A stretch of 47,921 bases of DNA from the IMG/VR virus record IMGVR_UViG_3300042876_000271, positions 1-47,921 of that record. The stretch is one strand, 5' to 3'. The DNA comes from a virus. Made by a program: the position numbers and the translations under genes. A model generated the notes under the pieces. That model was not told where the DNA came from and did no database searches. It saw only the letters and a program-made list of their open reading frames with translations. Positions 31,685-47,921 of the stretch are shown in pieces. Positions within the stretch are counted from its first letter, which is position 1. Every line of letters begins with the position of its first letter.

Positions 31685-32104
31685 ATGCCTGACTCCCTGA
31701 TCCGCAAGCTGGCTGGTGTTCGCAAGCTGGCGTTCATGACGATCCCAGGCGCCGTCATCGGGGGTGTTGGTGGCGCCATCGATGACGAGGACCGCTCCGA
31801 GGGTACCGGGGACAAGTTCATGCGTGGTGCCGCCACTGGTGGCATCACCGGGCTCGGCGCCGACATCGGGGCCATCGGGGGTGCCCTGGCTGGGATGCAT
31901 CTCTCCGACGACAAAAACAAGTTGAGGGGTGCCATCATCGGTGGCGGTGCCGGGGCTGTGAGCCTGGGCATCCTGGCGTATCTGCTGGCACGTAAGAAGG
32001 ACAAGTACAAGCAGACCACGTACCTCGACAAGCCAGCGCGGCCCCTGGCTGCTGGTAGCGCTGCCGATCTCGGGCTCCTCGGGGCCGGACTCGCGGCTTC
32101 CTGA
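31685..32104 (+). CDS. glycine-zipper membrane protein
   Basis: The ATG at 31685 has GAGG 5 nt upstream and is preferred over the ATG at 31673. The 139-aa protein begins with two RKLA motifs (LIRKLAGVRKLAF). It then has Gly-zipper hydrophobic segments (TIPGAVIGGVGGAI; GITGLGADIGAIGGALAG; GAIIGGGAGAVSLGILAYLL), the last ending YLLARKKDK. Such Gly-rich repeats pack closely in membranes. No enzyme domain. It is probably a virion protein that inserts into a membrane, by similarity in layout to several neighbours. Confidence 0.6.
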   Translation: MPDSLIRKLAGVRKLAFMTIPGAVIGGVGGAIDDEDRSEGTGDKFMRGAATGGITGLGADIGAIGGALAGMHLSDDKNKLRGAIIGGGAGAVSLGILAYLLARKKDKYKQTTYLDKPARPLAAGSAADLGLLGAGLAAS

Positions 32105-32111
32105 GATCATT

Positions 32112-32834
32112 ATGCCGCTGAATCAGAAGGCCAAAAAGGTTCTGGATTCCATGAAGAAGCAGTACGGCGCCGAAGAAGGCGAGCGGGTCTTCTATGCCAC
32201 GGCAAATAAGCAGGGGCGCAAGGCGGAGACCTGGACCAAGGAAGCCGCGGCGTGCTGCGGTTCCAAGTTGAAGAAGCGGCTCAAGAAGCGGGCCCAGAGT
32301 CCGCAGGAGCACTTCGCTGGGACCGTCGAGGAGCTCGAGCACACCGACAAGCCGGTGGTCGCGAAGCGGATCGCTGAGGACCACCTCGACGAGGACAGCA
32401 ACTATTACAAGAAGCTCGACGAAGCCGGACTCTTCGGGGACAAGGCTTCGGAGACCAAGCAGGCCGCGTACTACGAGGTCGGGGACCCCGAGGATGACGA
32501 CAAGCCGTCATTGATGTGGAACGTCCTCGGCGGTGCCGGTCTTGGTGCCGCTGCCGGTGTCGCCGGTGGCGGCGGTTACGGGGCCCTGAGTGGTTACTCC
32601 GATTACAAGACGAACACGGCCCCCGTGCTGAGCGCAGCCAGGAACCTGGCGACAGAAAACAACCTTCCGCCTCCGTACTTCGAGATGATCGATAGGGCGA
32701 ACCAGGAAGCCGGTGGATCTCCGAGTGGAGCCGCCTGGAAGGGGTTCTCCGAGAACAGCTGGAAGCCAGGCCTCTGGGGTGCCGGGATCGGTGCCGGGAT
32801 CGGTGCCCTGCGTTACCTCCTGAGCCGCGGTTAA
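32112..32834 (+). CDS. DUF5661-like domain fused to glycine-zipper membrane segments
   Basis: 240 aa. Residues 1-40 (KVLDSMKKQYGAEEGERVFY then ATANKQG) match a small conserved phage motif. Residues 65-105 (VEELEHTDKPVVAKRIAEDH, EDSNYYKKL) resemble the DUF5661 pattern, a phage protein of unknown function. After WTKEAAACCGS and TKQAAYYEV (K-x-A-A motifs) come Gly-rich membrane segments (GGAGLGAAAGVAGGGGYGAL; GAGIGAGIGALRYLLSRG at the end). The fusion of a soluble phage domain to a membrane tail is unusual. Located in the glycine-zipper gene block. Confidence 0.6.
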   Translation: MPLNQKAKKVLDSMKKQYGAEEGERVFYATANKQGRKAETWTKEAAACCGSKLKKRLKKRAQSPQEHFAGTVEELEHTDKPVVAKRIAEDHLDEDSNYYKKLDEAGLFGDKASETKQAAYYEVGDPEDDDKPSLMWNVLGGAGLGAAAGVAGGGGYGALSGYSDYKTNTAPVLSAARNLATENNLPPPYFEMIDRANQEAGGSPSGAAWKGFSENSWKPGLWGAGIGAGIGALRYLLSRG

Positions 32835-32845
32835 CAGGATTAGAG

Positions 32846-34423
32846 ATGCCACGTCCGCAGTTCATGCAGACCTACCTGAACGCGTGGCGTGCCAACCCGG
32901 TTCGCACGCTGCGCGATACCGGGCTGGTGTCTGGTCTCGGCATGTTCTCGGCGAATCAGGCCTGGAATCTGCTGAGCCCGGAGCGTCGTCGAGCCAACGC
33001 TGATATCGTCAGCAAGAACATGTCCAAGGGCGTCATCGACGCCTTGGTCCCTCCGGACATGACGCAGAAGCTTCGGGACCAGGTTTCCGGGCTCCCGCAG
33101 GGGATCAGGCAAAGCATGGAGGCCGGTATTCAGGGCGGCTTCCGGGAAGGTACCAGCGACCTGTTTAAGAGCGTTAAGAACAACACCCCGGCATGGTTGG
33201 CGGCTGGTTCCGCGGTTCTCGCGGTTCCCACACTGGCGTACCTGTTGTCGCAGTGGAGTTCAGAGCGGGAGTCCAAACTCGACGCTGACAAGGCGAAGGC
33301 CGATGTAGCCAAGCTCAAGCTGCGCCGTAGTCGGGCGCTGTCGTTGAAGCGGCGGAAGCGCGACATCGAACGTCGCGCACAGGCTCTCATGGCTGAGCGG
33401 CTCGGTACGGTCGGGCTTCCTGGCGAAGCTGGACCCGCCGCGATCGGGTTGCAGCCCAAGCTGGCTGGTTGGCGTAAGCTGGCAGCACAGCAGAAGCAGG
33501 CGATTCGATTCTGGCCGCGCCGGCTTGGCGGCGCCCCGAGCACACCCCCGAAGCCGGTGGTCCCCGCGGAGCCGCGGGCCTTCTCGAACTCGCTGCTCTG
33601 GGGTCTCGGTCTCGGCGGTGCCGGGCTTGGTGCCTACAACGTCGGTACCGGCATCCACGGTGGCGTCGGTGTCGCCAAGAAGCTGATCTCGGATCCCGAG
33701 GCCGCCTCGGACATCGTGAATCAGTACGCCTCGCGGACCGCGGATCTGGTGCGCGAGAACCTCCCGTTGTCTGACATCGGGCGCGTGGCTGGTGAGGCTG
33801 CATCGACAACGGCCATCGGGCTGCTGAAGTCACCTTGGACCTATGCTGGTATCGGAGCCACAGTTGGCGCTCCGTATCTCCTGGCGTACCTGCTTGGTGG
33901 TCGGAAGCGCCGGAAGCCGGCGAAGACGGCTGCGTTACTTGATTACGCGCCGGCAGCGGCTGCGCTAGCTCCACTGGGGTTGTTGGCGAATCGGCGGATC
34001 CGGCACTACGCCAGGAATCACGCCTGGCCAGCACTTGGAACTGGTATGGCGTACACCACGGCCGGACTCGGGCTGGCCTCTACGGTGGACCCACAGCTGC
34101 CAGCTCGGGTCTATTCGAGTGCGGCGGCCAAGGCGTTGCCGGCTATGTTCAGCTTGAATGGCGCCATGCGGGAGCGGCTCAGCGAGCCGCTGGCGAGCAC
34201 GATGCAGAGCACGATTGGCGGGCTGCCATACAAGGTGTTCCAGACCGCCAAGGATAGCTCGAAGCGCCTGTTCGATACCGTCAAGGACTCCTTCGAGAAG
34301 CGCCCCGTGTACTCTGGAACGGTGGTCGGGCTCGGAGCTACAGCACTGGGGACCCTTGGTTACTTGTTGTGGAAACAGACACGTCGACAGGCTGAGGACA
34401 TCGCGGAGGACAAACCAACGTGA
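32846..34423 (+). CDS. multi-span glycine-zipper protein, 525 aa
   Basis: The protein looks like three concatenated membrane modules. Each ends with a helix closing in a Y-L-L plus basic motif: LAYLLSQWSSERESK (residue about 130), LLAYLLGGRKRRKPAK (about 345) and GYLLWKQTRRQ (about 510). Between them are amphipathic helices, a Lys/Arg-rich helix (RRSRALSLKRRKRDIERRA) and a WRKLAAQQKQA motif near residue 210. RKPAKTAALLDY follows the second module. Its C-terminal GTG overlap with the Nudix gene suggests coupling. Likely a virion protein deployed into the host membrane; no known family. Confidence 0.6.
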   Translation: MPRPQFMQTYLNAWRANPVRTLRDTGLVSGLGMFSANQAWNLLSPERRRANADIVSKNMSKGVIDALVPPDMTQKLRDQVSGLPQGIRQSMEAGIQGGFREGTSDLFKSVKNNTPAWLAAGSAVLAVPTLAYLLSQWSSERESKLDADKAKADVAKLKLRRSRALSLKRRKRDIERRAQALMAERLGTVGLPGEAGPAAIGLQPKLAGWRKLAAQQKQAIRFWPRRLGGAPSTPPKPVVPAEPRAFSNSLLWGLGLGGAGLGAYNVGTGIHGGVGVAKKLISDPEAASDIVNQYASRTADLVRENLPLSDIGRVAGEAASTTAIGLLKSPWTYAGIGATVGAPYLLAYLLGGRKRRKPAKTAALLDYAPAAAALAPLGLLANRRIRHYARNHAWPALGTGMAYTTAGLGLASTVDPQLPARVYSSAAAKALPAMFSLNGAMRERLSEPLASTMQSTIGGLPYKVFQTAKDSSKRLFDTVKDSFEKRPVYSGTVVGLGATALGTLGYLLWKQTRRQAEDIAEDKPT

Positions 34424-35958
34424 CCGAGCCGGACCTGACTCCGAAGACCAACGCGCCGCCGAGGAACACCGATACCGGTGGTCGCCCGGCGCGCCCGTCG
34501 AACGCCGTTCTGATGCGACAGGCCGGGCAGGTCGAACGCTACAGCGGCGGCACCCCGATCTACGAGAAGCTCGGTGCGTTCATCGTCGATGTCACCGCGG
34601 CACGGATCCGGGCTGATCTCCAGAAACGGGCGTCGGCGGTCCTGCAGTTCCCGACGCGCGAGATCGAGATCCGGCTCACCAAGCTGGCTGGTGTCGCCAA
34701 TGAGCCCGAGGTCGACGACCACGACTCCGCTCCCACCGACAAGATGCGGCCTCGCGCCGAGCTCATCCTGTGGAACCGTGACGGCGTCTACGCCATCGAC
34801 AGGGGATCCTACATCCTGTTCCCAGGTGGCGGCATCGATGATGGCGAACAGCCCAGGGATGCCGCGATCCGGGAGACCTTGGAGGAGTCCAACCGTCACC
34901 CCATCAACGTGGTCAACGCGGGCATCGTGGAGTCCGTGTGGCCGCTGGATTCCGGGAACGAGTTCTGGGATGACTCCGACTTCGATGGCGAGCGGACCTA
35001 CTTCTTCTCGGGCGTCGACGCCGGTGAAGCCGGGATCACGCACGAGGACCGCGAGGACTTCGCAGTCATCGGGTTCGATGAGCTCATCACCAAGCTGGAA
35101 GCGCTCATCGAACGTGACGACCAGACCTGGGCGGCTCAGAACAACCGGACCCGTCTCAAGCTGGTCAAGCACGCCAAGCGGATGGCGGCCTCACGCGTCA
35201 ACCTGAAGCCGATCAAGCAGGCCGCTGTGGCTGAGCAGGCCCTGGCTGAGGTCCAGCCTGCTGCGGCTCCAACTGGCCCAGCTCCGATCCCGACGCACCC
35301 CACCACCGCGGTTCCCACGAACCCTGGTGAGGCCCCGCCGCCCGCTCAGGACGGCCAGCCGGAGACCACCGACAACAAGACGTTCGTGGCTGGTCTGGCG
35401 CAGAAGTTCGTGCCTGCAGAGGGTGACCAACAGCCTGGTACCGTTGCCGAGAAGCCGATCGCACCACAGGGCGCCACGGCTCCCGAAGGTGCCACGGCCC
35501 CAGAGGGTCAGACTGCTCCGGTCACCAAGACTGCGGACGCCGCCAACCTGATGCGGCGGAACCAGTACATCATGGTGACCCCCGATGGCCGCGTCATCGT
35601 GCGTCGGCTGCCGAATCGGAGGTTCTCGTTCCCCGAGCAGGGCACCGGCAAGCGGGCCCCCTACGAGGAGCCCGTGCGTCTGCTGCCGCCAACCGGTGTC
35701 CCGGAGCCCGGCTACCATGGCTACGAAGTCGGTCTCCATGTCGGTGACGCTCCCGAAGCGATCCCCGAGGGATTCGAGGCGGTGCCCTCAGAGGAAGCTC
35801 TCAAGGAGCTCTACGCCTCGATGGGTCTCTCCGCAAACCGTCCCTTTCAGGCCTTGGATCGCGCCCGAGCCCGCGCCTTGGTCCGCCTGCTGAGGAAGCG
35901 CAAGAAGCCCGAGATCACTCCCACGGTCATCCCAGAGGTTCCAGGTGCCCCGCTCTAA
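34420..35958 (+). CDS. Nudix-hydrolase domain fused to a long linker and C-terminal domain
   Basis: 512 aa from GTG, overlapping the upstream stop. A Nudix box is clear: Gly137, Glu143, Arg151-Glu152 and Glu155-Glu156 in GGIDDGE-x7-RETLEES, with Asn158 where the consensus has Gly. The fold runs about residues 108-240. Nudix enzymes hydrolyse nucleoside diphosphate-linked compounds. Residues 265-370 form a Pro/Thr/Ala/Gln-rich linker with a threefold GATAPE-type repeat. Residues 380-512 form a separate basic domain (GRVIVRRLPNRRFSF, ARARALVRLLRKRKK). The fusion with a virion-style basic domain suggests delivery of the enzyme in the particle. It overlaps the next gene by 14 nt. Confidence 0.7.
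   Translation: MTEPDLTPKTNAPPRNTDTGGRPARPSNAVLMRQAGQVERYSGGTPIYEKLGAFIVDVTAARIRADLQKRASAVLQFPTREIEIRLTKLAGVANEPEVDDHDSAPTDKMRPRAELILWNRDGVYAIDRGSYILFPGGGIDDGEQPRDAAIRETLEESNRHPINVVNAGIVESVWPLDSGNEFWDDSDFDGERTYFFSGVDAGEAGITHEDREDFAVIGFDELITKLEALIERDDQTWAAQNNRTRLKLVKHAKRMAASRVNLKPIKQAAVAEQALAEVQPAAAPTGPAPIPTHPTTAVPTNPGEAPPPAQDGQPETTDNKTFVAGLAQKFVPAEGDQQPGTVAEKPIAPQGATAPEGATAPEGQTAPVTKTADAANLMRRNQYIMVTPDGRVIVRRLPNRRFSFPEQGTGKRAPYEEPVRLLPPTGVPEPGYHGYEVGLHVGDAPEAIPEGFEAVPSEEALKELYASMGLSANRPFQALDRARARALVRLLRKRKKPEITPTVIPEVPGAPL
35467..35520 (+). repeat. three-fold 18-nt coding repeat
   Basis: Three in-frame 6-codon units (QGATAP, EGATAP, EGQTAP) in the linker of the Nudix fusion. Short direct repeats of this kind can change copy number by slippage. 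Confidence 0.6.
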
Positions 35959-37249
35959 AGCTCGCATCGCGTTGTGCCGTAAGCTGGCCGCTGTCACCGG
36001 GTCAGATGCCCTGTATCGCAAGCTCGCAGCTGCGCGAGCCGCTGGCTTGTTCCCCAATCAGAAGCAGGCCGCGGAACCGCTGGGGGTCCGGATGTACCAG
36101 GCCGGGGACGCCGACCGCGCTGCTCGAGAGGCCGACAAGAAGGCGTTGCTCGAGGCTCAGAAGATGCGCGGTCAGCGTGACCGCGAGATCAACGCGGCGA
36201 AACAGGAAGAAGAGGAAGCCGCGTTCCGCTCGAAGATCATGGAACAGTTGGAGCAGAAGAACCCCGAGTTCGCCGCGGCTCGCAAAAACTTGAAGGCGTG
36301 GCAGGAGGCCGTAACTGCCTATGAGCACGTCCAAAAGACTCGAAGCGGCAGACCGGCGATCACCAAAGGTCAGTACGACGATTACGTCAAGAACATCAAC
36401 AGTACGCAGAGCATGGTGAACCGGGTTTTCAAACAGGCCGTGGATGAGGCCAGGGCCGCCGAGGCTGCGCAGCCTTCGCAGGCCGCGCAGGCCACACAGC
36501 CCAGCGCACCCCCAACAGCCACTGAACCGGCACAGTCGGAGACCGCACCGCAACCAGCTCCGGTGGCCCAGACCACGGAGCCCAGCCCGGTCCAGTCCGC
36601 ACAGCCGGAACCGCCGCCGCAGGCTCCTGTGGTCAAGGCCCCGGAGCCCGTACAGCCGACGGCTCCAGTTGCCGTAGCTCCTGAACCGGAGCCTCCAGCG
36701 GAAGAGGAACCCCAGCAGTTCTCGCCCATGGGTGGCGACGATCCCGCTGCGATCACATCGAATGTTCCCGCGAAGCCGCCGACGCCGATCTCGACGCCGT
36801 CGCAGTCCATGGCGAAGGCGCCGACTCCGAAGCCACCGAAGATCGAACCCAGCAAGCCGGCTCCGGTTATCGGTGGGAAGTTCGCTGCGCTGAAGCGCAA
36901 GCTGGCCGCCGTGATGCCGTTCACAGCGCTTCGTCGTGCCCAGCGGATCGGCGGTGGTGAGAAGTTCGACTTCGATGCGCTGCGGAAGGCCTACAACACG
37001 GGGCCCTATCAGTGGCTAGCCAAGTCGACCGAACAGCCTGGGAAGCAGAGCGTCGTGTTCCAAGGCGTCGACACCGGGCTCCCGTTCTCGAAGGCTGGGC
37101 TCATCGCGGCTGTGAAGGCTGCGTTGGCTGCGAAGGCTTCTAAGTCTGGTTCGAAGTCCTGGATGGGCAGAGAGGCTCGGGCTGTGCGTCGCGACGCGAA
37201 GACCCACGGCCGCCCGCCCGGTCCGAGCGGCGGCGTTCTGGGGGACTGA
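35945..37249 (+). CDS. proline-rich linker protein with RKLA motifs
   Basis: 434 aa from GTG, overlapping the Nudix gene by 14 nt. It starts with two CRKLAAV/YRKLAAA motifs, then a charged helical region (KKALLEAQKMRGQRDREI). A long Pro/Ala/Gln-rich linker (residues about 175-310) follows, with a third KRKLAAVM motif near residue 320. The C-terminal domain is compact (KFDFDALRKAYNTGPYQWL, GKQSVVFQGVDTGLPFS) and ends basic. No known domain. The repeated RKLA motif links it to the neighbouring virion-type proteins. Confidence 0.55.
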   Translation: MPRSKARIALCRKLAAVTGSDALYRKLAAARAAGLFPNQKQAAEPLGVRMYQAGDADRAAREADKKALLEAQKMRGQRDREINAAKQEEEEAAFRSKIMEQLEQKNPEFAAARKNLKAWQEAVTAYEHVQKTRSGRPAITKGQYDDYVKNINSTQSMVNRVFKQAVDEARAAEAAQPSQAAQATQPSAPPTATEPAQSETAPQPAPVAQTTEPSPVQSAQPEPPPQAPVVKAPEPVQPTAPVAVAPEPEPPAEEEPQQFSPMGGDDPAAITSNVPAKPPTPISTPSQSMAKAPTPKPPKIEPSKPAPVIGGKFAALKRKLAAVMPFTALRRAQRIGGGEKFDFDALRKAYNTGPYQWLAKSTEQPGKQSVVFQGVDTGLPFSKAGLIAAVKAALAAKASKSGSKSWMGREARAVRRDAKTHGRPPGPSGGVLGD

Positions 37250-38058
37250 TGCCGAACCTGGCCCTTGAAGGCGTCCGGGCGGTGACCCCGTTGACACAGG
37301 GGGCACGTGATCTGAGCTGGCTGCAACCCAGGCACGTCGATCACGCCGCTCCGCTGTCGGAGCAGCTCTACGATCAGCTCACCGCGGAAGAGCAGATCGC
37401 CAACTTGGACGAGGACCGCCGGAACCCGCTGTGGAAGCGCACCCTGATGCACGCCGGTATCGGTGCCGGTCTCGGTGGTCTCCTGGCTGGCGGCAAGACC
37501 TTGGTGGGAACCCACGGGGACTGGTCCTCGGTTCCCGTTGGTGCCGGTATCGGTGCCGCTTCAGGCGCCGTGCTGGGTGCCGCGTTCACGGGAGCCAAGG
37601 AGCTCCTCGCCGGACTCCTGAGGCGTAACGCGAGGCGCACGATCCGGGAGTCCTCGCCAACCGCGAAGCTCGTGATGCGGTCGCCACGGTTCCGGTCGCA
37701 CGTCAGCGACTACGCGTTGTCCGGCTGGCATCCCTGGTACGGCGCCGAGCTCGGCCTGTACGCCGGAGCCCTGGGAACCGCAGCCCATGACTGGGTCTCG
37801 GGGACCCCGGTGTCCTGGAAGCGCCCCCTGATCGGTGGTGGCATCGGGGCCGCCGCTGGCGGCCTGCTCGGCTACATCCTGAGCGAACGGAGGCGTAAGA
37901 AGCTCCTGCATCGGATCCGGGACAACTTCGGTCGCCAGGACCGCGCCAGGACGCGCGCCGAGGTCGAGGCCGCCCGCCAGGCTGGCGGAGAGCTTGCCAA
38001 CGCGGATACCAGGTTGGAAGCTGCTATGCAGCCCGCGTTCCCGCAGGTCCAGGGGTGA
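37249..38058 (+). CDS. glycine-zipper membrane protein, 269 aa
   Basis: Starts in the overlapping TGATG. Hydrophobic Gly-zipper pairs lie at residues 68-120 (AGIGAGLGGLLAGGKTL, GAGIGAASGAVLGAAFTG) and 190-215 (IGGGIGAAAGGLLGYILSER). The last closes Y-I-L-S-E-R-R-R-K-K, the same helix end seen in neighbours. A basic helical C-terminus follows. The N-terminal 65 residues are soluble and acidic (LYDQLTAEEQIANLDED). Probably a membrane-active virion protein. Confidence 0.6.
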   Translation: MPNLALEGVRAVTPLTQGARDLSWLQPRHVDHAAPLSEQLYDQLTAEEQIANLDEDRRNPLWKRTLMHAGIGAGLGGLLAGGKTLVGTHGDWSSVPVGAGIGAASGAVLGAAFTGAKELLAGLLRRNARRTIRESSPTAKLVMRSPRFRSHVSDYALSGWHPWYGAELGLYAGALGTAAHDWVSGTPVSWKRPLIGGGIGAAAGGLLGYILSERRRKKLLHRIRDNFGRQDRARTRAEVEAARQAGGELANADTRLEAAMQPAFPQVQG

Positions 38059-38059
38059 C

Positions 38060-38875
38060 ATGCTGATCTCCAGGCAGGGACAGTTCGGACCCATCGAGCT
38101 TCGTGATACCCTCACGACGCGCGAGATCCTGTTGAACGGGCAGTGCCAGGGCGGCGCCCTGCTGACCCCGTCGGCTCGGTGCGTCGACGACGAGCTCCCT
38201 GACGACGCCCCGGGTCCAGTCGCGGCGTCTTCGTACGCCATGGGATGGCTCCACGCGGGCGTCCACAACCGCAACGGCTCAGGAATCATGATCGGACTGG
38301 GTTCCGGGGCCGGTGCCGTACAACTCCTCCAGAACTTCCCGCAAATCGATCTGACGGTCATCGAGGTTGACCCCGTCATGGTCACCGTGGCCCTGGCTGG
38401 GTTCCCCCTGCTGCACTGGTACATGAACCAGGGCAGGTTGAACATCGTGGTCGCCGATGCCACGAAGTATCTGGAATCCCGGTATGACGTCTGGGACTTC
38501 GCGTGCGCCGACGCCTACACCGGTTCGAACGAACTCGTTCCGGACTACATCCCGCTGCTTTGTGACCGCGCGGACAACATCTACTTCAACGTCATCGACA
38601 CCCTCGATGGGCCCCTGTTGGAGGGCCTCCAGGACTACCTGGCCCGGAAGCGTATGGAGCCCGTGGCTGGGCTCTTCAAGGCGATGCCGTGGGACCGCTA
38701 CGACAACTACCCCTTCGGGGCTCGTTCGAACTGGATCCTGACGACGCAGCCCACGGACTGGGCGACCGCGGGTCACTTCCTGCCGTTCGCTGACATCCGG
38801 GATCCCAACGTGGCCACGGCACAGCGGACCTGGGATGCCTTCCTGGCACACGGAGTCACGTCGGATAGCGAATAG
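38060..38875 (+). CDS. spermidine-synthase-like SAM-dependent methyltransferase fold
   Basis: The ATG at 38060 follows the previous stop closely. The 271 aa show a Rossmann methyltransferase core: motif I IGLGSGAGAVQLLQ (about residues 76-90), acidic strand 2 end VIEVDPVMV, then VVADATKYLES and DFACADAYTG. This order matches spermidine synthase and related class I methyltransferases. The spermidine-synthase substrate residues cannot be verified here, so the substrate is unknown. Its place among virion genes is odd: the enzyme may modify host or phage molecules, or be carried in the particle. Confidence 0.6.
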   Translation: MLISRQGQFGPIELRDTLTTREILLNGQCQGGALLTPSARCVDDELPDDAPGPVAASSYAMGWLHAGVHNRNGSGIMIGLGSGAGAVQLLQNFPQIDLTVIEVDPVMVTVALAGFPLLHWYMNQGRLNIVVADATKYLESRYDVWDFACADAYTGSNELVPDYIPLLCDRADNIYFNVIDTLDGPLLEGLQDYLARKRMEPVAGLFKAMPWDRYDNYPFGARSNWILTTQPTDWATAGHFLPFADIRDPNVATAQRTWDAFLAHGVTSDSE

Positions 38876-38879
38876 CCTG

Positions 38880-38908
38880 TTGCGAAAAGCTATGGCTACC
38901 ACTACGAT
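38880..38908 (+). promoter_or_regulatory. promoter candidate with TTGCGAAAAG element
   Basis: TTGCGA (38880-38885), a 17-nt spacer and TACGAT (38903-38908). The -35 and following bases (TTGCGAAAAG) are identical to those at 47336. A ribosome binding site (CAGGAG) and ATG follow at 38930. Confidence 0.5.
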
Positions 38909-38929
38909 CCTGGCTCACAGGAGTTCCCC

Positions 38930-39880
38930 ATGGCTGACCAGCGCCCAGTGATCGATACCCCACGCGCGTTCAGCGAAGGTGAAATCGCGGCTTCCATCGC
39001 GGCGGGCTCCGACCTCAGTGTTCCCTTGGAGAGCCGTCCCGCGACGAGCCCCCGGGTCCAGGGGGTCGTCATCGCCGACGCCGGGCGTCCCACGGAACGC
39101 TCCGCGGCCAAGGTCATCGACTTCGACAAGAACGACCGCTTCAAGCCGAACACCTCGGTGATCTCGCGGTCCTCACAACCCCTGGCCGAGATCCCGGTGC
39201 AGCGGGTCTACCTGCCTGAGAAGGGCCAGAAGGGTGACACGGTAATCGAAGATGCTGGCGTCCAGGCCGTCACCACGGGGACCAGGCAGGTCCTCCCGGC
39301 CGCTGCGTTGTCGGCGCGTCCGGCTCCAGCTGACGGCACCGTCGGTGGCATGACACCCGACGTCGAGATCTCCGAGGCCCCACGGCGTGCCGCGATCCTG
39401 AACCCGGGTGCCGAGCACGCCGTTGGGGTCCAGCCCGTGGTCAGACAGGAGACCCGGTTGAGCTCGTTGACCCCAGTTCGTCCACAGGGGGCCCCCGTGA
39501 TGCAGAAGCAGGCCGAGGTCCAGCCTGCGGCGCCAGCCGCGCCGTCGGTTCAGTTGCAGGGTCTCGCTGGCGGTATCGGTATTGCGCAGATGACCCCAGC
39601 GGTTCCGCAGAAGCAGCGCGTCACGATCTCGTCGCCGACGATCGGGAAGCATCGGATCCGGGTCGATTTCGTCGGTGTGAGCTCATCAGTTGTCGTGTTG
39701 GCGTACCTGAACACCGATGACGCCGTGATCTTCGAACCACCGGCTGGTGGTGTCGAGAACCCGTTGACCGTCGAGTTCAACGAGAAGTCGTACACCTGCG
39801 CGTACCACGGGTTCTCCGTGGAAATGTCGTACGGCCCCTATGCGGTCTTCCAGGTTGTCCTTACCCGTATCGACGAGTAA
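38930..39880 (+). CDS. virion-type protein upstream of the portal
   Basis: 316 aa. CAGGAG 6 nt before the ATG. Residues 1-190 are low-complexity and Pro/Ala-rich with charged patches (PRVQGVVIADAG, EISEAPRRAAILNPG), probably extended. One MQKQAEVQ segment carries a K-x-A motif. The last ~95 residues form a beta-rich domain (HRIRVDFVGVSSSVVVLAYL, EKSYTCAYHGFSVEM, PYAVFQVVLTRIDE). It ends 12 nt before the portal gene, so a portal-associated or head protein is likely. No family recognised. Confidence 0.6.
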   Translation: MADQRPVIDTPRAFSEGEIAASIAAGSDLSVPLESRPATSPRVQGVVIADAGRPTERSAAKVIDFDKNDRFKPNTSVISRSSQPLAEIPVQRVYLPEKGQKGDTVIEDAGVQAVTTGTRQVLPAAALSARPAPADGTVGGMTPDVEISEAPRRAAILNPGAEHAVGVQPVVRQETRLSSLTPVRPQGAPVMQKQAEVQPAAPAAPSVQLQGLAGGIGIAQMTPAVPQKQRVTISSPTIGKHRIRVDFVGVSSSVVVLAYLNTDDAVIFEPPAGGVENPLTVEFNEKSYTCAYHGFSVEMSYGPYAVFQVVLTRIDE

Positions 39881-39892
39881 GCTGAGGCCCTC

Positions 39893-41764
39893 ATGAGCGG
39901 TCTGGATTCACTGATCCCGGCAATGAGCCAGCAGATGCAGGGCTCAACGACGGCGCCCAACAACAAGCCGTTCATGACGCCGTGGTTGGACTACTCCACC
40001 GTCACGGTTCCCGACAACCACGAACTCGTGATGTGGTGGGCCCAGTACCTCTGGCTCACCGATGGCAACTTCCGTACCGCGATGGAGCGCGTCGCTGCCC
40101 ACTTCATGACGGTGTTGGAGTTCCCGGATCTGGAGCCCGATGAGGAATCCAGCTGGAAGGACTTCTTCAACAACGAGATCAACTATCGCCGCGAGCTGAT
40201 GTCGGTGGCGTACGATTTCCTGGCGTACGGGAACTGCTTTGTGTCGCCGTACCTGCCGTTCAAGCGGTTCATGCGGTGCCAGAAGTGCTTCCTGGAACAG
40301 CCCATCGATCGCGTCGACTACAACCTGGAGTTCTCGGCTGTGAAGCCGTACGTGAAGTGGCATCGCAAGCACAGCTGCCCGCGCTGTGACGACACCGGGG
40401 ATTACGAGGTCCTCGATCGTCGGGATCGCACGCTGTCCAAGATCAAGCTGAACCGCTATGACCCCGCCGAGATCGAGCTCGCCCAGAACCGGTTCAGCCT
40501 GCGCAAGGACGTCTACTGGAAGATCCCCGAGGAGACCCGGCGTGACATCCTGGAGAAAGCCAGGATCCACATCGATGATACCCCGTTGGAGGTTCTCGAA
40601 GCCGTTGCCGTGAATGGTCGGCTCTGCTTCGAGGAGGACATGATCCTCCACATCGATGAGCCCATCATCTCTGGCGTCAGGTCGCGTGGCTGGGGTCTGC
40701 CGCGTTCGATCTCGAACTTCAGGACTGCCTGGCTCCAGCAGCTCATCAACAAGACCGACCAGGCCGTCGCCATCGACTACACCCTGGGCATGCGCGTCCT
40801 GTCGCCGGCTCCGACCCCAGGCGGTCAGGATCCCATGGTGACCACGGGCATGGAACAGTTCGTGACCCGCATCAAGAGCATGGTGCAGGAACACCGCAAC
40901 AATCCAGCTAGCTATCACACGGCGCCATATCCGATTCAGTACCAGTTCCTCGGCGGCGAAGGTGGCACTCTGATGCCGCCCGAGAAGCTGAAGTTCCGTC
41001 AGCAGGAGTACCTGAACCAGCTGGGTGTCCCGTTGGAATACCACCAGATGAATCTGAGCACGCAGGCCGCCCCGATGGCACTGCGGCTCTTCGAGTCGTA
41101 CTGGCAGGTCGTCCCGACGGCGTACAACCGTGTCCTGGACTGGCTCGTCGATATCCTGAGCAAGGTCTACGGCATGGAGCCGACCAAGGTCAGGATGCAG
41201 AAGACCACCATCGCGGACGACATGGAGCGCAAGGCAGTCCTGCTCCAGCTCATGTCGGCGAACCAGCTCTCCCCACAGACCGCGCTGCAGCCGTTCGGGA
41301 TCGATGCCCACGACGAGGTCAAGAAGGTCATCCGGCACCAGGAGTTCGTGTCGCGTCAGCAGGACGCCCAGGCCGAGAAGGACGCCCAGCGCGAAGAGAT
41401 GGGTGCCCTGCGCAGCATGACGGCACAGCCCAGCCCGGCGACCCTGCAGGCCCAGCAGGCCCAGGCTGCCGCTGGGGCGGCTGGTCCAGCGGGCGCCCCC
41501 ATGGGTGGCATGCCCACAGGCGGCATGCCTGGGGTCCAGAGCCAGACGCCGTCATCACTTGGCGAGATGTCCGAGCAGGCCCAGGGGATCGCGCAGCAGC
41601 TCGTCACCATGGACGACTACAGCCGAAAGGGCGAGCTCAAGGCGCTGCGCGAGGGCAACAAGGACCTCCACGCCCTCGTCATGCAGAACCTCGACGACCT
41701 CCGCAGCCAGGCCAAGAGCCAGGGTGGCCAGATGCTGTTGAGTGGCGGCATGCCCGCGGCTTAG
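39893..41764 (+). CDS. portal protein with Cys4 zinc-finger-like insertion
   Basis: 623 aa, GAGG 5 nt before the ATG. The layout matches large-phage portal proteins: an N-terminal helical part (RTAMERVAAHFMT), a wing region and long helices. A clip/stem region runs WLQQLINKTDQAVAIDYTLG, then LKFRQQEYLNQLGVPLEY and FESYWQVVPTAYNRVLDWL. Near residues 129-165 there are two Cys pairs (RCQKC; SCPRC), forming a likely zinc knuckle. The C-terminus is Gln/Ala/Gly-rich (AAAGAAGPAGAPMGGM). Portals form the dodecameric DNA gateway. The overall call is by resemblance, without a computed match. Confidence 0.75.
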   Translation: MSGLDSLIPAMSQQMQGSTTAPNNKPFMTPWLDYSTVTVPDNHELVMWWAQYLWLTDGNFRTAMERVAAHFMTVLEFPDLEPDEESSWKDFFNNEINYRRELMSVAYDFLAYGNCFVSPYLPFKRFMRCQKCFLEQPIDRVDYNLEFSAVKPYVKWHRKHSCPRCDDTGDYEVLDRRDRTLSKIKLNRYDPAEIELAQNRFSLRKDVYWKIPEETRRDILEKARIHIDDTPLEVLEAVAVNGRLCFEEDMILHIDEPIISGVRSRGWGLPRSISNFRTAWLQQLINKTDQAVAIDYTLGMRVLSPAPTPGGQDPMVTTGMEQFVTRIKSMVQEHRNNPASYHTAPYPIQYQFLGGEGGTLMPPEKLKFRQQEYLNQLGVPLEYHQMNLSTQAAPMALRLFESYWQVVPTAYNRVLDWLVDILSKVYGMEPTKVRMQKTTIADDMERKAVLLQLMSANQLSPQTALQPFGIDAHDEVKKVIRHQEFVSRQQDAQAEKDAQREEMGALRSMTAQPSPATLQAQQAQAAAGAAGPAGAPMGGMPTGGMPGVQSQTPSSLGEMSEQAQGIAQQLVTMDDYSRKGELKALREGNKDLHALVMQNLDDLRSQAKSQGGQMLLSGGMPAA

Positions 41765-41776
41765 TGAAGGTCACCC

Positions 41777-41805
41777 TTTCCATAGCGTTGGAAGCTGCAT
41801 AAGGT
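41777..41805 (+). promoter_or_regulatory. weak promoter candidate after the portal gene
   Basis: TTTCCA (41777-41782), 17-nt spacer, TAAGGT (41800-41805) in the 69-nt gap before the ATG at 41834. Only moderate match to consensus; position is the main support. Confidence 0.3.
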
Positions 41806-41833
41806 TGTGGCACCGCACTAAAGGATCCCGCCG

Positions 41834-42427
41834 ATGCCTACGTCCCCGTTGTGCCGCAAGCTGGCCAGTGTTCTGCAGACCAAGACCGCCGCCAAGTTCC
41901 GGTGGAGCGCGGATCCCGCACAGCTGACGGTGCCTGCGCACCCGCTGAAGCCGGGATCGTACATGCCGGAACCGGAAGGTTCGACCAAGCCGGTCCTGGG
42001 TTCCATGAAGATGCCGGACCTCGGACACGGTGGCCCGGTGCGCCCGTACAGGCCAAGCCTTGGCGACCGCGGTCGTGATGCCGCCAGTCTCGCAATCCTG
42101 CTTGGGCTCCCCGTGGCTGGAGCGGCTGGAATCGCTGGTGCCGGGTACGCAGCTGGTCGAGCTGGCTCAGAAGGTACCCCGGTTGAACCGCCCGTCACGC
42201 CGGCAGCGGATCCGCCGGCGAAGCCGAAGCCGCCGGTGAAGCCGCCTGTCAAGACTCCAGTCGTCCCGGGTGCCGCACTTGAAGAGCCCGGCATGCTGGA
42301 TCAGGCCTGGAGCTACGCCAAGGAGAACCCGTGGCAGGCCGCTGGCATCGGCGTCGCTGGTGCCGCTGGTGTCGCCGGAGCCGTCATGCTGCTCAAGAAG
42401 CTTCTGAGCAAGAACCGCGACGAGTAA
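41834..42427 (+). CDS. two-span membrane protein with RKLA/KTAA motif
   Basis: 197 aa, AAAGGA upstream. The N-terminus CRKLASVLQTKTAAKF holds both RKLA and KTAA motifs. Membrane segments lie at about residues 82-105 (SLAILLGLPVAGAAGIAGAG) and 170-190 (AAGIGVAGAAGVAGAVML), with a Pro/Lys linker between (KPKPPVKPPVKTP). It ends in a basic cap (LLKKLLSKNRDE). Same style as the glycine-zipper proteins upstream; likely a virion membrane protein. Confidence 0.6.
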   Translation: MPTSPLCRKLASVLQTKTAAKFRWSADPAQLTVPAHPLKPGSYMPEPEGSTKPVLGSMKMPDLGHGGPVRPYRPSLGDRGRDAASLAILLGLPVAGAAGIAGAGYAAGRAGSEGTPVEPPVTPAADPPAKPKPPVKPPVKTPVVPGAALEEPGMLDQAWSYAKENPWQAAGIGVAGAAGVAGAVMLLKKLLSKNRDE

Positions 42428-42443
42428 ACGTCGAGAGGGCTCC

Positions 42444-45350
42444 GTGACCACGAAGCCAGTCCGTCAGGTCGAGCGACCACGACGCGCTACGTTGCGCGGT
42501 GTCAGGGAGCGTGACGCCGTTGATCAGATCAACACCCTGAATCTGCAGGGTCCCAGGTCGGCGAAGCTCGATCTGAACAAGCTCCTCAAGGACGCCTGTG
42601 CGAAGGCCGTTAAGCAGGCACAGCAGGCGCCATCGCCGGACCCCAAGAAGCCCGGTGCCTACGAGGGTCCCGAGGTCCGTGCCCTGTTGGATCGCATCGG
42701 GCAGGTCTTCGAGAGCAACGATCAGGATTATTTCACGAAGAACGGAACGACACGTTCGGCGTGGGTACTGAACACCGCGCAGGACCCCTGGCAGACTGCC
42801 TCGGTGTTCAAGAACTTCGGCAGGATCACGCGGACCCCGTTGTTCGAAGATCTCGCCACGATGATCGCGGGTTACCAGCAGAGCCAGGCCGGTATCGAAC
42901 ATGGTGAAGGTCGACAGCAGCGCATGCAGCGGTTCGCGGAACCCGAGCAGGCCGTGCAGGCGGGAACCAAGGATTACGGGATCAACCGCAACGCGTATCA
43001 AACCAGGATGGCTCAGGAGTCCACGGTCCTGGAAGCTTTCAACCAGGCCGGTAACGCGGTTGACCTCGTCGTTCCAGGCAAGGTTGTCAGTTTCATCGCC
43101 AACTATGGCCCCGATATAGCGGCTGCGACGTGGGCTAAGGTTCGGGGTGATGCCGTGCATCCCGGGCACGCCGAGTTCGAGCACCCCGAGCTCCGGCCAT
43201 TCATTCCGTTGGCGAATAGCACGATGGATGTCATCGAGGCGCGTGAAAGCGTGGCCAGGCTGGAGAACGCGCAACGTCGTGGCGAAGCCATCGATCGGAC
43301 CGCGTTGGACTCCGCTAAGAAGCGGGAAGCTCTCGCTGAGCAGGGCGTCGTCGAGGCCTCCAAGCAGGTCCCACAGCGTAAGATCGAGGCATCAAAGGAG
43401 AGCGCCTGGAACGGTATCGCAGAGACCGCGTCTAAACTCGGGGCTCTGCCGACGTTGGCGATGTCGCCAACCGCGATGCCAGCGATCTCGTTTCTGATGG
43501 AGTTCACGCTGACTCCGAATCTGGCCAATGCGCAGGCTTTGAAGGCGCTGGAGTCTGATACCGCGATGCTTGGGCTGCAGGATCCCAAGCTGGCCGGTCG
43601 TGTCCTGTTGTCCGAGATCGACGGGATCCCAGCTGGTACCGAGTTGACGCCTGAGGTCGTCCAGAAATTGAGCGCGACACATGGAACCGCTCTGATCCCA
43701 ACGATCACACCAGAAGGATCCAGGCAGCTCCAAGCTGCTTATCAGGCCAACGCGCCAGATGCCCAGAAGGCTGGAGCCGCCGGGGTCCAGGCGATGTTCG
43801 ATATCGTCGGTGCCCACATGGTGCGTGGCGCGATGTACGATGTCGCCTCGAACATGCGGGTCTCGCGAAACACGTCTCCCATGTTGAAGAGCTTCGTGAC
43901 GGCGGCGCGTACCCAGCTCGGGCGGGCCACCGCTGGACAGCGGGTCGCGACCTGGGCCGGTAACAAGTTGGCTGCGAAGGCGGGTGCCGTGGCGAGGTTC
44001 GGGGCTCAGGCGATCGGACATCTTGCCCAGGACGTCCCGGGTGCGGCGCGCGTCGGTAAGGCGCTCGAGCAGCTCTCCCGGATTGGTAAGCTTCCTGCTG
44101 CCGCAGCATCTCGAGCGGAGCGGTTAGCTGCGCTCGGTCGGCTCGGCGGTGTTGGAGCCCGGCTGGCTACAGGTGGAGCCGTGGTAAGCGCCGGGCTCGC
44201 GGCTCGCGAAGCCATCCTGTCTGGTACAGAGCAAGGCAAGTATCAGCACGAGCAAGGTCTCCGCGACCTCGCGGCCTCCGATGCGGAGACCTCGTGGGGA
44301 CGCCAGGTTGGCCGAGATCTTGCCGCGATTCCGGAGTCCCTGTTCTGGAGCACGGAGCACGCCAAGGCCAGGCTTGGTGAATGGATGGGGTCCCGCGGAT
44401 TCGGAGACCCTGAGTACGCCAGGATCTACAGGGAAGCTCTCGATGAGGCCCGGTTCAACCAGGATCTCGGGAAGCAGTACGAAGTCGCCCTGGCTGACGT
44501 CGAAAAGATGATGCCAGGTCTGAGCCAGACCAGGTACCACGAGCTCGCCAGTGAGATGGCATTGAACCGGACCGGCACGGCACGTGGGCTGATTCCGCGG
44601 CAGCGTCAGGTCAGTGAGTACGAACGTGCCTTCCTGGAGTCGCCAGTAGGCGAAGCGTTGCCGCCGGAGAACAAGGCGCGCGCCGTTCAGATCCTGCGTG
44701 AAGTCGGCCCAGAGGTGTTCCACAACACATTCTTCTACGGGGACAGCATCCCCGACAAGCCGACCTGGGCTGCTCTGCATCACGGGCTCCAGGCCCAGGT
44801 CCCCGATCGTCTCGCCGAGTTCAATGTGAGCTGGCGGGATCCCGTCGAAGATCGGATCGCGGCTCAGGAAGCCAAGGTTCAGCAGACCAGGCAGGTCGCC
44901 CAGAACGCCGCGGAGACCCAGGAGATCAGTGCGGCAACCCAGCAGGCCCGAGCGGAGACCCAGCAGTCCGCGGTTCAGTCCCAGCAGCGCGCCCAGCAGT
45001 CCGAGGCTGACCTGGCGGCGAGGTCCCAGCAGCAGGCCGAACAGCTCGCTCGTGATAAAGCTCTGACGCAGCAGAAATTGAGAGCGCAGGAGTCCGAGCA
45101 GGCCGCGTTCATGGCTGCACTGGATTCCCAGCAGGCTCGCTCCGTTCGTCAGGATCAGGCGTTTGCCGCGAAGCACCCCGGGCCAGCCCAGCAGCCCCAG
45201 CTTCCCGAGTTGCCGCAGCCAGCTGTTGCGGCCGTTCCAGGCGCCAGTGTTGATTCAGCCCCTACGGGTACCGATAATCCTACCACGGCGTCGAAACCGG
45301 CGCGGCTCGACGTCACGAAGTACCTCCCGAAGACCCCGGCCCCGATCTAG
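42444..45350 (+). CDS. large virion protein, 968 aa, with Gln/Ala coiled-coil end
   Basis: GTG start with GAGAGGG about 5 nt upstream. The protein is largely helical: RKLA-like NKLAAKAG near residue 510, hydrophobic stretches (LPTLAMSPTAMPAISFLMEF; LATGGAVVSAGLAAREAI) and a Gln/Ala-rich coiled coil (residues about 800-900: QQTRQVAQNAAETQEIS, QQSEADLAARSQQQAEQL). No enzyme motif seen. Length and helicity fit an internal or ejected virion protein; a tape-measure role is possible but its low hydrophobic repeat content makes it uncertain. Confidence 0.6.
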   Translation: MTTKPVRQVERPRRATLRGVRERDAVDQINTLNLQGPRSAKLDLNKLLKDACAKAVKQAQQAPSPDPKKPGAYEGPEVRALLDRIGQVFESNDQDYFTKNGTTRSAWVLNTAQDPWQTASVFKNFGRITRTPLFEDLATMIAGYQQSQAGIEHGEGRQQRMQRFAEPEQAVQAGTKDYGINRNAYQTRMAQESTVLEAFNQAGNAVDLVVPGKVVSFIANYGPDIAAATWAKVRGDAVHPGHAEFEHPELRPFIPLANSTMDVIEARESVARLENAQRRGEAIDRTALDSAKKREALAEQGVVEASKQVPQRKIEASKESAWNGIAETASKLGALPTLAMSPTAMPAISFLMEFTLTPNLANAQALKALESDTAMLGLQDPKLAGRVLLSEIDGIPAGTELTPEVVQKLSATHGTALIPTITPEGSRQLQAAYQANAPDAQKAGAAGVQAMFDIVGAHMVRGAMYDVASNMRVSRNTSPMLKSFVTAARTQLGRATAGQRVATWAGNKLAAKAGAVARFGAQAIGHLAQDVPGAARVGKALEQLSRIGKLPAAAASRAERLAALGRLGGVGARLATGGAVVSAGLAAREAILSGTEQGKYQHEQGLRDLAASDAETSWGRQVGRDLAAIPESLFWSTEHAKARLGEWMGSRGFGDPEYARIYREALDEARFNQDLGKQYEVALADVEKMMPGLSQTRYHELASEMALNRTGTARGLIPRQRQVSEYERAFLESPVGEALPPENKARAVQILREVGPEVFHNTFFYGDSIPDKPTWAALHHGLQAQVPDRLAEFNVSWRDPVEDRIAAQEAKVQQTRQVAQNAAETQEISAATQQARAETQQSAVQSQQRAQQSEADLAARSQQQAEQLARDKALTQQKLRAQESEQAAFMAALDSQQARSVRQDQAFAAKHPGPAQQPQLPELPQPAVAAVPGASVDSAPTGTDNPTTASKPARLDVTKYLPKTPAPI

Positions 45351-45360
45351 GACCTCAGAC

Positions 45361-46635
45361 ATGTCAACGCTGTTGCAAAATCAGGTCAAGCTGGCCCTCG
45401 CTCGAGTCGTCGCAGATCGAGTTGCCAAGAAGGTGGCGGCAGAGGGTGAAGGCTTCTTCGCACCGTTCCAGAAGGCGCTCGATCTGGTCCAGCCCCCGAA
45501 GCCCGCTGTTCCGGCTAAGAGCCCCGTGACTCCGGTTCCGGTGCCGAAGCCGGCAGTTCCAGCGGCGGCTGCCCCGCCAGCGGCTCCTGCGGTTCCCCTG
45601 GCTCCGGTCAGCGACCCAGCCCCGGTTCCTCCGGCTCCAGCTAAGCCGGTCACGGCACCTGGACCAGCTGCCACGACCCCCAGCGACGCGATTGCCGCAC
45701 AGACCGCAGCGGCGCAGGCAGCGTCGGCTCAGGCTCCGATGCGCGGCGGGAAGCCGGCGCCGGCGGAAGCCGCGGCACCGGCCACACCGCCGGTCCCAGC
45801 TCCAGCTTCTACCCAGCCGCCGGCGTTGCCTGATGAAGGGAAAGCTCCGAACACGGTTGCGGCTGCAGTCGAGGCCGCCAATGACCCCAAGCAGTTCGAA
45901 GAGGCGCTCAAGCAGCACAAAGCGAAGTTTGATGCTGATCGCGGGGCGATCACCCAGGAGACCGCTGCAATCGCGGATGCCGTGGTGAAGAATCCAGCGG
46001 GGTCCGGGTTCGGCGACTGGGTGACCAGTAACTGGCAGAACTTCCTGATCCCAGCCGGCATCCTGGCGTTCGCGTTCGGTGGAACTGTTGGCGGTGAGAA
46101 GGGCGACATCATCGGCAAGGTTCTCGGAGCCCTGGCGATCGGTGCTGGTGGCTACAACCTGTACAAGCGGTACGGGAACATCACCGAGGACCCCGAGCAG
46201 GCCGAACCGGGTTCGGCACGGCGCGCCGAGCTTGAGGACATCCAAGCCGGGATCCGGACCGCGCTGTTCCAGCAGAAGGACGACGGCACCAAGGCCCCGT
46301 TCTACAATCCAGCCGCGGCCTACGACGAGCTGGTCGCTGGTGCAGGCGGCAATCCCGAGGTTCTGAAGCGGCTCGAGGCCAACAAGGCCTCGATCATCCA
46401 GGGCATCCAGGATGTCAGGCTCGCCGCTGGCCTCGGGTTCACAGACAAGATCATCGCGAAGCTCAAGCAGGGCGAGCAGGCCGTATTAGGGAGCCTCGAC
46501 GCAGCCGAGGCTGCTCAGCGTCCGAAGGCCCCTGCCGCGCCGAAGCCGGTGGCCTCAGCACCGGCTGCGACGGCTGGTACGGGTGCAACGCAGACCCCGC
46601 GGGCCGGTGGTCCGGCTACGCGGATTCCTGGCTGA
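45361..46635 (+). CDS. proline-rich linker and two-span membrane protein
   Basis: 424 aa. The N-terminus carries VKLALARVVADRVAKKVAAE, then a long Ala/Pro linker (residues about 55-155, PVPVPKPAVPAAAAPP-type). A charged helix follows. Membrane segments lie at about residues 224-260 (FLIPAGILAFAFGGTVGG; IIGKVLGALAIGAGGYNLYK). The C-terminal helical domain (DIQAGIRTALFQQK, EVLKRLEANKASIIQ) is soluble. No family recognised; the linker-plus-membrane layout is like its neighbours. Confidence 0.55.
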   Translation: MSTLLQNQVKLALARVVADRVAKKVAAEGEGFFAPFQKALDLVQPPKPAVPAKSPVTPVPVPKPAVPAAAAPPAAPAVPLAPVSDPAPVPPAPAKPVTAPGPAATTPSDAIAAQTAAAQAASAQAPMRGGKPAPAEAAAPATPPVPAPASTQPPALPDEGKAPNTVAAAVEAANDPKQFEEALKQHKAKFDADRGAITQETAAIADAVVKNPAGSGFGDWVTSNWQNFLIPAGILAFAFGGTVGGEKGDIIGKVLGALAIGAGGYNLYKRYGNITEDPEQAEPGSARRAELEDIQAGIRTALFQQKDDGTKAPFYNPAAAYDELVAGAGGNPEVLKRLEANKASIIQGIQDVRLAAGLGFTDKIIAKLKQGEQAVLGSLDAAEAAQRPKAPAAPKPVASAPAATAGTGATQTPRAGGPATRIPG

Positions 46636-46641
46636 TAGCCC

Positions 46642-47358
46642 ATGACGTATTCGGACGCCCTGAACTACTACAACGCCATGCAGGCCCAGGACGACATCGC
46701 CCGGGGTCCGGGTGGGCTGCTGGACACGACGGAGGCCATGACGGAGTTCCGTCGGCATCTCAATACCCCGGCTCAGCAGCCCAAGCAGCTCACGTTCGGG
46801 GACATCTTGCACGGCGCCATCGGTGCCGCCCTCGGGGCTGGCGTAGCTCGCGGAGCCAGTTCAGCACTTGGGCTCAGTGATCGCTTCTCAGACAAGCTGG
46901 AAACCATCGGACTCGGACTCGGAGCTGCTATGAACACAGGGTACATCAAGAGCGCCGCGGAAGCCGAGGCCTCACTCGCCAAGCAGCTCGACAGGCTCGA
47001 CGAGCTCGAACCCAAGGTCGCCGCGGCTCGCGTGGATGCCTTCCGGCTCGGGTTCGTCCGCGGGCTCCAGGACGCCGGGTACTTCGAGAAGGGCGCCGCC
47101 GTGATCCCGCTTCCGATCGTCACGCTGGACGCCGCCAACATGTTGTCGGTACCTCGCAGCATCGGTAAGGCGATCACGAGTGGTGGCGAAGTCGTCGGTA
47201 CCGGGCTCGGTGTCGCGGACTCCCTGGATGAGACCGATGAAGAGGTCTCCAAGATCAACGTGGAGCGCGCCATCCTGGAAGACAGGCTTGAGCAGCTCAA
47301 AGCGGATCGCCGGAATGCCGCGCTGAAAGACATCCTTGCGAAAAGGCGTGTGAAGTAG
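46642..47358 (+). CDS. helical protein with glycine-zipper segment
   Basis: 238 aa. A Gly/Ala hydrophobic segment near residues 55-70 (GAIGAALGAGVARGASSALG) is followed by long charged helices. RLGFVRGLQDAGYFEKGAAV contains a G-F-x-x-x-x-x-x-A-G pattern known to me from phage virion proteins, with a K-G-A-A motif. The C-terminus is a charged coiled coil (ILEDRLEQLKADRRNAALKD). No ribosome binding site is obvious; translation is probably coupled. Virion role inferred. Confidence 0.55.
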   Translation: MTYSDALNYYNAMQAQDDIARGPGGLLDTTEAMTEFRRHLNTPAQQPKQLTFGDILHGAIGAALGAGVARGASSALGLSDRFSDKLETIGLGLGAAMNTGYIKSAAEAEASLAKQLDRLDELEPKVAAARVDAFRLGFVRGLQDAGYFEKGAAVIPLPIVTLDAANMLSVPRSIGKAITSGGEVVGTGLGVADSLDETDEEVSKINVERAILEDRLEQLKADRRNAALKDILAKRRVK

Positions 47359-47364
47359 TAGCGT
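47336..47364 (+). promoter_or_regulatory. promoter candidate with TTGCGAAAAG element
   Basis: TTGCGA (47336-47341), 17-nt spacer, TAGCGT (47359-47364). Shares TTGCGAAAAG with 38880. The -35 lies inside the end of the preceding gene. The -10 is only 5 nt from the ATG at 47370, so a transcript from it would have almost no leader. Confidence 0.4.
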
Positions 47365-47369
47365 TCGGC

Positions 47370-47720
47370 ATGGTCGACGTACACCCCGCGCTCCGGTTGC
47401 CCAAGGGGATCCCGACGTCGCGGTACCGGCCGCCAGCCCCTGTTGAGATCCCCAAGGGGCTCCAGGAGCTCCCCCTCATCGACAAAGACACCCCGGACTC
47501 CGGGAAGGTCCAGGAGCACTGGATCGCCCGAGTTGGCGTGTTTGATCTCTGCGACGATACCCAACGCGAGGCTTACGAGCGGATCTGGCAGTCGGTATGC
47601 GACGGACAGGCCATTATGTCGGAGCACCGGACCGAATACGACAGCGCGAAGTGCCGTTTTCTGGCCTTGTTGCGTTGGGCCGACATCAAGTATAAAGTGC
47701 CTGACGAACCAAGAGGATAG
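47370..47720 (+). CDS. hypothetical protein, 116 aa
   Basis: 116 aa. The N-terminus is Pro-rich (LPKGIPTSRYRPPAPVEIPK). A helical C-terminus contains DDTQREAYERIWQS and CRFLALLRWADI. No ribosome binding site and a -10-like sequence 5 nt before the ATG suggest leaderless or nearly leaderless expression. No family recognised; it may be a structural or head-completion-like protein given its neighbours. Confidence 0.55.
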   Translation: MVDVHPALRLPKGIPTSRYRPPAPVEIPKGLQELPLIDKDTPDSGKVQEHWIARVGVFDLCDDTQREAYERIWQSVCDGQAIMSEHRTEYDSAKCRFLALLRWADIKYKVPDEPRG

Positions 47721-47723
47721 AGC

Positions 47724-47921
47724 ATGGTGCTGCCCAACATGGACTGGACCGGCGACGCTGGGTACATCCCGCACGTTGCCTTGGGCGCCCTGGCCGCGGG
47801 TGGTGTTGCTCGACTCGGAAAAGGGCTCATCGATCTGTACCGTGAGGGCGGCGATGACGACTCCAGGTACCCCGTGAAGGCGATTCGACCGGCGCAGGCC
47901 ATGATCCCTGTCGAGGTCAGC
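47724..47921 (+). CDS. partial glycine-rich protein, runs off the window
   Basis: 66 codons are present from the ATG at 47724 (GAGGA about 6 nt upstream) to the window end, still open. The start NMDWTGDAGYIPHVALGALA has an Ala/Gly-rich segment (LGALAAGGVARLGKG) like the glycine-zipper proteins, then an acidic loop and PVKAIRPAQAMIPVEVS. Too little is visible to assign a function. Confidence 0.5.
   Translation, partial: MVLPNMDWTGDAGYIPHVALGALAAGGVARLGKGLIDLYREGGDDDSRYPVKAIRPAQAMIPVEVS

Follow-up and report, generated by a model that had tools for sequence, protein, structure and literature searches.

A recurrent Gly-zipper, tail-anchor-like helix on probable head proteins of a large relative of Salmonella phage Arash

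Introduction

Salmonella phage Arash is a 180-kb myovirus (PMC10585845). Mass spectrometry of its particles detected the RNA polymerase beta subunit, which gave the most spectra, as well as beta', a sigma factor, and the Gly-zipper proteins gp4, gp213, gp221, and gp224 (PMC10585845). Internal proteins with predicted membrane helices are also found among the ejection proteins of podoviruses, namely gp14, gp15, and gp16 of T7 and gp7, gp16, and gp20 of P22. T7 gp16 has predicted membrane helices and needs its basic C-terminal residues (PMC8954989). The SPN3US ejection protein gp47 has a predicted membrane helix (PMC5694885), and membrane settling during entry has been proposed for T7 gp16 and for SPN3US gp47 (PMC8954989, PMC5694885). 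The heads of such giant phages, among them phiKZ with its inner body, likewise contain numerous proteins and a multi-subunit RNA polymerase. Literature searches that paired glycine zippers or GxxxG with phage virions or ejection turned up no relevant work.

In bacteria, anchors of the DUF883_C family (PF19029) are found on ElaB and YqjD of E. coli, and yeast assays have shown them to enter membranes (PMC5525287). Here, we compare these systems with a gene block around the portal of a large phage, in which one kind of Gly-zipper helix recurs on proteins with different soluble parts.

The phage and its gene block

The window, which is the whole stretch of DNA analysed (47,921 nucleotides), forms one end of an IMG/VR contig of 191,518 bases (100% match over the end region), and a small difference between the two is confined to the first 45 bases. 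The contig is circular, as its ends are 127-base direct repeats, and the gene block extends beyond the window end. Positions past the window are given as R coordinates on the reversed contig, where R1-127 repeats the window end.

The portal homology points to Arash. Homologous portal, capsid, protease, and multi-subunit RNA polymerase genes occur in the same order in both phages, the arrangement of an Arash-type myovirus, and homologues of Arash gp204, gp206, gp216, gp218, gp222, gp226, and gp10 are present. Judged from these genes, the phage is a circular, 191-kb, large contractile-tailed relative of Arash. A baseplate J gene, a component of contractile-tail baseplates, was found past the window, a difference from the podovirus ejection systems. 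Arash has Gly-zipper proteins at comparable places, and these are in its particles; however, the portal-polymerase block is far larger in the present phage. Its features are as follows.

31673..32104, + strand: p31673, 143 aa; N-terminal LIRKLAGVRKLA motifs; the module helix spans 31928-31990, AIIGGGAGAVSLGILAYLLA followed by RKKDK
32112..32834, + strand: p32112, 240 aa; N-terminal DUF5661 (E 1.8e-6)
32846..34423, + strand: p32846, 525 aa; module helix in three copies, at about 33191-33247, 33830-33901, and 34304-34372
37249..38058, + strand: p37249, 269 aa; two helical hairpins, the last helix at 37825-37884, PLIGGGIGAAAGGLLGYILS followed by ERRRKK
39893..41764, + strand: portal protein, 24% identity to Arash gp204; anchor of the genome comparison
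41834..42427, + strand: p41834, 197 aa; immediately 3' of the portal, N-terminal LCRKLASVLQTKTAA
45361..46635, + strand: p45361, 424 aa; Gly-rich helix pair at about 46039-46164, of a different kind from the module
46642..47358, + strand: p46642, 238 aa; conserved, with a Gly-rich helix at about 46789-46869 that is not the module
47724..47921, + strand: start of p47724, which has three Gly-rich helices and whose 297 aa are complete once the contig ends are joined
R833-5239, the next gene, beyond the window: RNA polymerase beta fused with the N-terminal part of beta' (Pfam) in a single reading frame of 1,468 aa
R5239, directly after the RNA polymerase gene, past the window: 362 aa, with the clearest DUF883_C anchor
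R9188: rest of beta', a separate gene, with three or more genes between R833 and R9188
R18213: head protease
R19508: scaffold-like protein
R22271: capsid

A terminase assignment for the 1,468-aa gene was rejected, since Pfam identifies the beta subunit of RNA polymerase together with a portion of beta'. A NUDIX domain protein (Pfam E 4.9e-10) and, by eye, a spermidine-synthase-like enzyme lie among the putative virion genes at window positions 34420-35958 and 38057-38875; both are kept in relatives. The portals of the relatives L006/L009 and L007 have an insert of ~330 aa near residue 112 with intein-like ends (CFRGDT...HETHSFVIENGILTGN followed by C); the insert sits between conserved portal residues and is missing from the window's portal. 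After the capsid gene, R23318-25222 encodes a protein of 634 aa; inspection by eye suggests TPR-like repeats and a second half that resembles glycosyltransferases. A sigma-factor-like gene at R42393-43265, similar to the Arash virion sigma factor gp10 (E 1e-9), adjoins the baseplate genes.

A shared anchor-like module

A sequence-only reading of this DNA had proposed that at least seven proteins share a Gly-zipper membrane segment. All seven reading frames exist, each with a hydrophobic Gly/Ala-rich stretch, and the six Y-[LI]-L plus basic ends that it quoted are exact: YLLARKKDK in p31673, RYLLSRG in p32112, AYLLSQWSSER, AYLLGGRKRRK, and GYLLWKQTRR in the three copies of p32846, and GYILSERRRKK in p37249. 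When segments were aligned and scored against shuffles, p31673, p32112, p32846 (three copies), p37249, p41834, and R5239 grouped together, and p45361, p46642, and p47724 fell outside the group or nearly so. Membership thus holds for p31673, p32112, p32846, p37249, and p41834, whereas p45361 and p46642 carry other Gly-rich helices; that of p46642 is just moderately hydrophobic (1.33). By this comparison, the set is five proteins in the window and one outside it (R5239).

The firmest link is between p41834 and R5239, which share 57% identity over 46 residues (E 1e-12) and differ in their N-terminal parts. Because of this match, p41834 is counted as a clear relative despite the missing Tyr at the end of its anchor (about 42326-42394, KENPWQAAGIGVAGAAGVAGAVMLL followed by KKLLSKNRDE). 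From the aligned sequences, the putative module has Pro/Trp close to where the Gly-zipper helix begins, and this helix runs into a stretch rich in Leu/Tyr (Y-L-L) with a charged tail, largely of basic residues, behind it. A single module helix stands at the extreme C-terminus in p41834, p32112, and R5239, but not in p31673, p37249, or two of the p32846 copies. In p32112, a C-terminal hairpin ends at the stop codon (module helix about 32766-32831, GLWGAGIGAGIGALRYLLS followed by RG), and soluble stretches of 130-200 aa separate the three helices of p32846. The view that different soluble parts are attached to one module in a block around the portal is supported, and the anchor appears to have been duplicated within and between proteins.

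The comparison with composition took in the homologous block of eight related contigs, from which 59 non-redundant, charge-free, Gly/Ala-rich segments were taken. An end motif, Y-[LIVAMW]-[LIYVMAW] in the last seven residues before the charged end, occurs in 20 of the 59 segments against 3.9 expected from within-segment shuffles (0/5000 reach 20). The same phages supplied 26 control segments, taken from their tail-fibre and enzyme genes, and none of these has the motif. E. coli K-12 proteins from two 49-kb stretches rich in membrane proteins, a small sample, have this motif in 1/28 (strict) or 6/98 (loose) segments (Fisher p 0.001 and 1e-5). A position-specific score was trained with each protein cluster held out in turn; its combined p is 3e-15 when the block segments are basic-ended, against 0.65 for controls. 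Mutual similarity beyond composition was also found, in that phage-phage segment pairs have a mean Z of 1.58 with 31% at p<0.05, versus -0.01 and 5% for control pairs.

The excess over shuffles, phage controls, and E. coli indicates that the pattern is neither composition alone nor general to membrane helices. Aromatic-belt and positive-inside effects were considered as the whole explanation and are rejected by the small E. coli control. A profile built without this genome ranked block proteins at the top, yet reversed block proteins score too, which means that Gly/Ala composition and periodicity account for part of the profile score. For the weaker members, the sequences fit homology and convergence alike, and convergence is possible.

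Likeness to bacterial tail anchors

DUF883_C and ElaB/YqjD share with the phage module an ENPW-like start, a GxGxxxG helix, a Leu-rich end, and a basic C-terminus, a resemblance that the sequence-only reading had missed. R5239 exceeds the Pfam cut-off for DUF883_C (27.5 versus 27 bits, E 2.4e-6). p41834 (E 0.001, genome scan) and the middle copy of p32846 (E 0.005) are below it, and the remaining module copies are unmatched. In the other direction, the phage profile searched against 59 E. coli proteins matched YqjD and ElaB only. Unlike DUF883_C, the phage module is joined to other N-terminal parts, often has a Tyr in its end, and is multi-copy per genome and per protein, with a single copy passing the curated cut-off.

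The Gly-zipper families PF05433 (Glycine zipper 2TM), PF13441, and PF13488 have the same helix periodicity, and every match of theirs to the phage proteins is under curated cut-offs; p31673 has a weak gly-zipper match to Rick_17kDa (E 5e-4, under cut-off). PHROGs and Pfam searches with the module proteins returned no function beyond DUF5661 and the weak gly-zipper matches. Neither database gave a significant match to T7 or P22 ejection proteins (P22_gp7, E 0.11, is at chance level). No homology to SPN3US/phiKZ was detected, and a shared anchor module is not known to have been described for them.

These features bear on whether the helices enter membranes at all. It is unlikely that they instead serve as Gly-zipper packing that holds an internal protein core together in the head. 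Many segments are short, moderately hydrophobic, and Gly-rich, and such helices pack tightly. However, the Tyr/Leu end with basic residues and the likeness to ElaB/YqjD, which insert in yeast membranes (PMC5525287), argue for anchors, as do the C-terminal copies placed just before a stop codon.

Distribution among relatives

The module profile finds matches in all eight contigs, which are largely its training data. Five more close relatives, fetched later (L035, L036, L039, L040, and L043), also have the module; these later-fetched relatives gave eight independent new matches and none in reversed sequences. Profile searches found no significant module in relatives at about 22-32% portal identity and no Y-L-L anchor module in Arash, and a tblastn search of 50,697 phage records with an anchor segment returned no match. 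A whole-protein search with p32846 among relatives recovered p32846 itself only.

Nine of ten close relatives have, directly 3' of the portal, a small protein with the anchor as its last residues. Relatives differ in how many copies they carry and in whether these are fused to other proteins. For example, the counterpart of p37249 in relative G002 is a 999-aa protein, whose N-terminal part is 35% identical to p37249 with the glycine pattern conserved. Separately, a single 1.9-kaa protein replaces p41834, p42444, and p45361 in L007, L008, and L010 (G004, G005, and G007); sequence supports this correspondence only in the C-terminal part, which is similar to the p45361 family (E 1.5e-7). L005 differs from other relatives in having ~7 kb (L005:2052-9200) with no clear + strand genes, from a methyltransferase-like gene to the p38930 counterpart.

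Evidence for a virion location

Portal, RNA polymerase, protease, capsid, and sigma factor are homologues of Arash particle proteins (PMC10585845). The claim that the module proteins are virion proteins gains from this by analogy, through the homologues of flanking genes and the Gly-zipper proteins in Arash particles (PMC10585845). Arash gp4, gp213, gp221, and gp224 are without the Y-L-L module, and the virion data cover analogous proteins only. By these comparisons, the same kind of predicted anchor is on at least six probable head proteins around the portal and virion RNA polymerase genes.

A second line of evidence is a head-type motif, [LIMVF]-x-K-x-A, which is enriched 2.4-fold in head-region proteins including this block and not in non-structural proteins. 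It may be a head-targeting or maturation-protease site. The counts are 55 versus 23 expected from shuffles for 32 head-region proteins (window 30697-47921 plus R1-23300), 20 versus 25 for 69 non-structural proteins, and 66 versus 27.7 for an Arash subset. The motif is often N-terminal, and the scaffold-like R19508 has nine variants. The post-portal proteins of several relatives begin with a K-x-A motif.

That the module proteins are non-virion proteins, made only in the infected cell and acting at the host membrane in phage exclusion, takeover, or ribosome docking, is quite improbable. Ribosome binding at the membrane has been reported for YqjD (PMC5525287), and the NUDIX and spermidine-synthase-like genes in the same run mean that not all genes need be structural. 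Nevertheless, the tight spacing with virion genes, the head-type motif near N-termini, the fusions to large proteins in relatives, and the Arash virion data argue for a place in the particle. A holin or lysis role was set aside given copy number and context.

Proposed insertion at ejection, and head assembly as a rival

The main reading is that the proteins are packaged in the head and that, at ejection, their tail-anchor-like helices become embedded in the inner membrane of the host, aiding the crossing of DNA and virion RNA polymerase; its probability is about 0.5. We infer packaging in this phage, ejection, insertion, and the formation of a conduit or channel. The block would encode head-interior proteins of an Arash-type contractile-tailed phage, whose particle would carry a multi-subunit RNA polymerase of its own. 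Inside this particle, the zipper helices would be packed against one another near the portal. At infection, the anchored proteins would exit through the tail alongside DNA and RNA polymerase, after which the helices would enter the host inner membrane. Zipper contacts could then gather several anchored proteins into a transient conduit or docking structure surrounding the site of entry. AlphaFold models of p46642 (pLDDT 43) and p37249 (pLDDT 54, hairpins at low confidence) are too weak to reveal a channel or for fold search.

T4 proheads start at the membrane, and membrane-linked head assembly is the main rival to ejection. The anchors would tether portal-initiation or scaffold-associated proteins to the inner membrane for prohead assembly, and the proteins would later be packed or left behind. 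The genes are found on either side of the portal, in a region that also encodes protease, scaffold, and capsid, and ElaB-type anchors insert from the cytoplasm (PMC5525287), which is the side of head assembly. This role is nonetheless rather unlikely, as the anchored proteins exceed in number and variety what tethering would require, with up to several anchors per protein, and the analogous Gly-zipper proteins of Arash remain in the mature particle.

Implications

The idea of a membrane-insertion module, proposed earlier, has good support at the level of sequence and moderate support at that of biology. The duplicated anchor module is apparently undescribed; the proteins that bear it are otherwise of a known kind (ejection or inner-head proteins) and form no new class. 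A possible but doubtful extension of ejection-linked insertion is that a phage lineage captured a DUF883-type bacterial anchor, which was duplicated and spread over many head proteins, yielding a multi-component entry complex in the inner membrane that delivers DNA and the multi-subunit RNA polymerase. If true, a bacterial-type membrane anchor would have been re-used many times in a virus particle. The finding bears on how large contractile-tailed phages get proteins the size of a multi-subunit RNA polymerase through the inner membrane, a problem for which the repeated, recognisable anchor would provide a short list of candidate genes and a removable handle.
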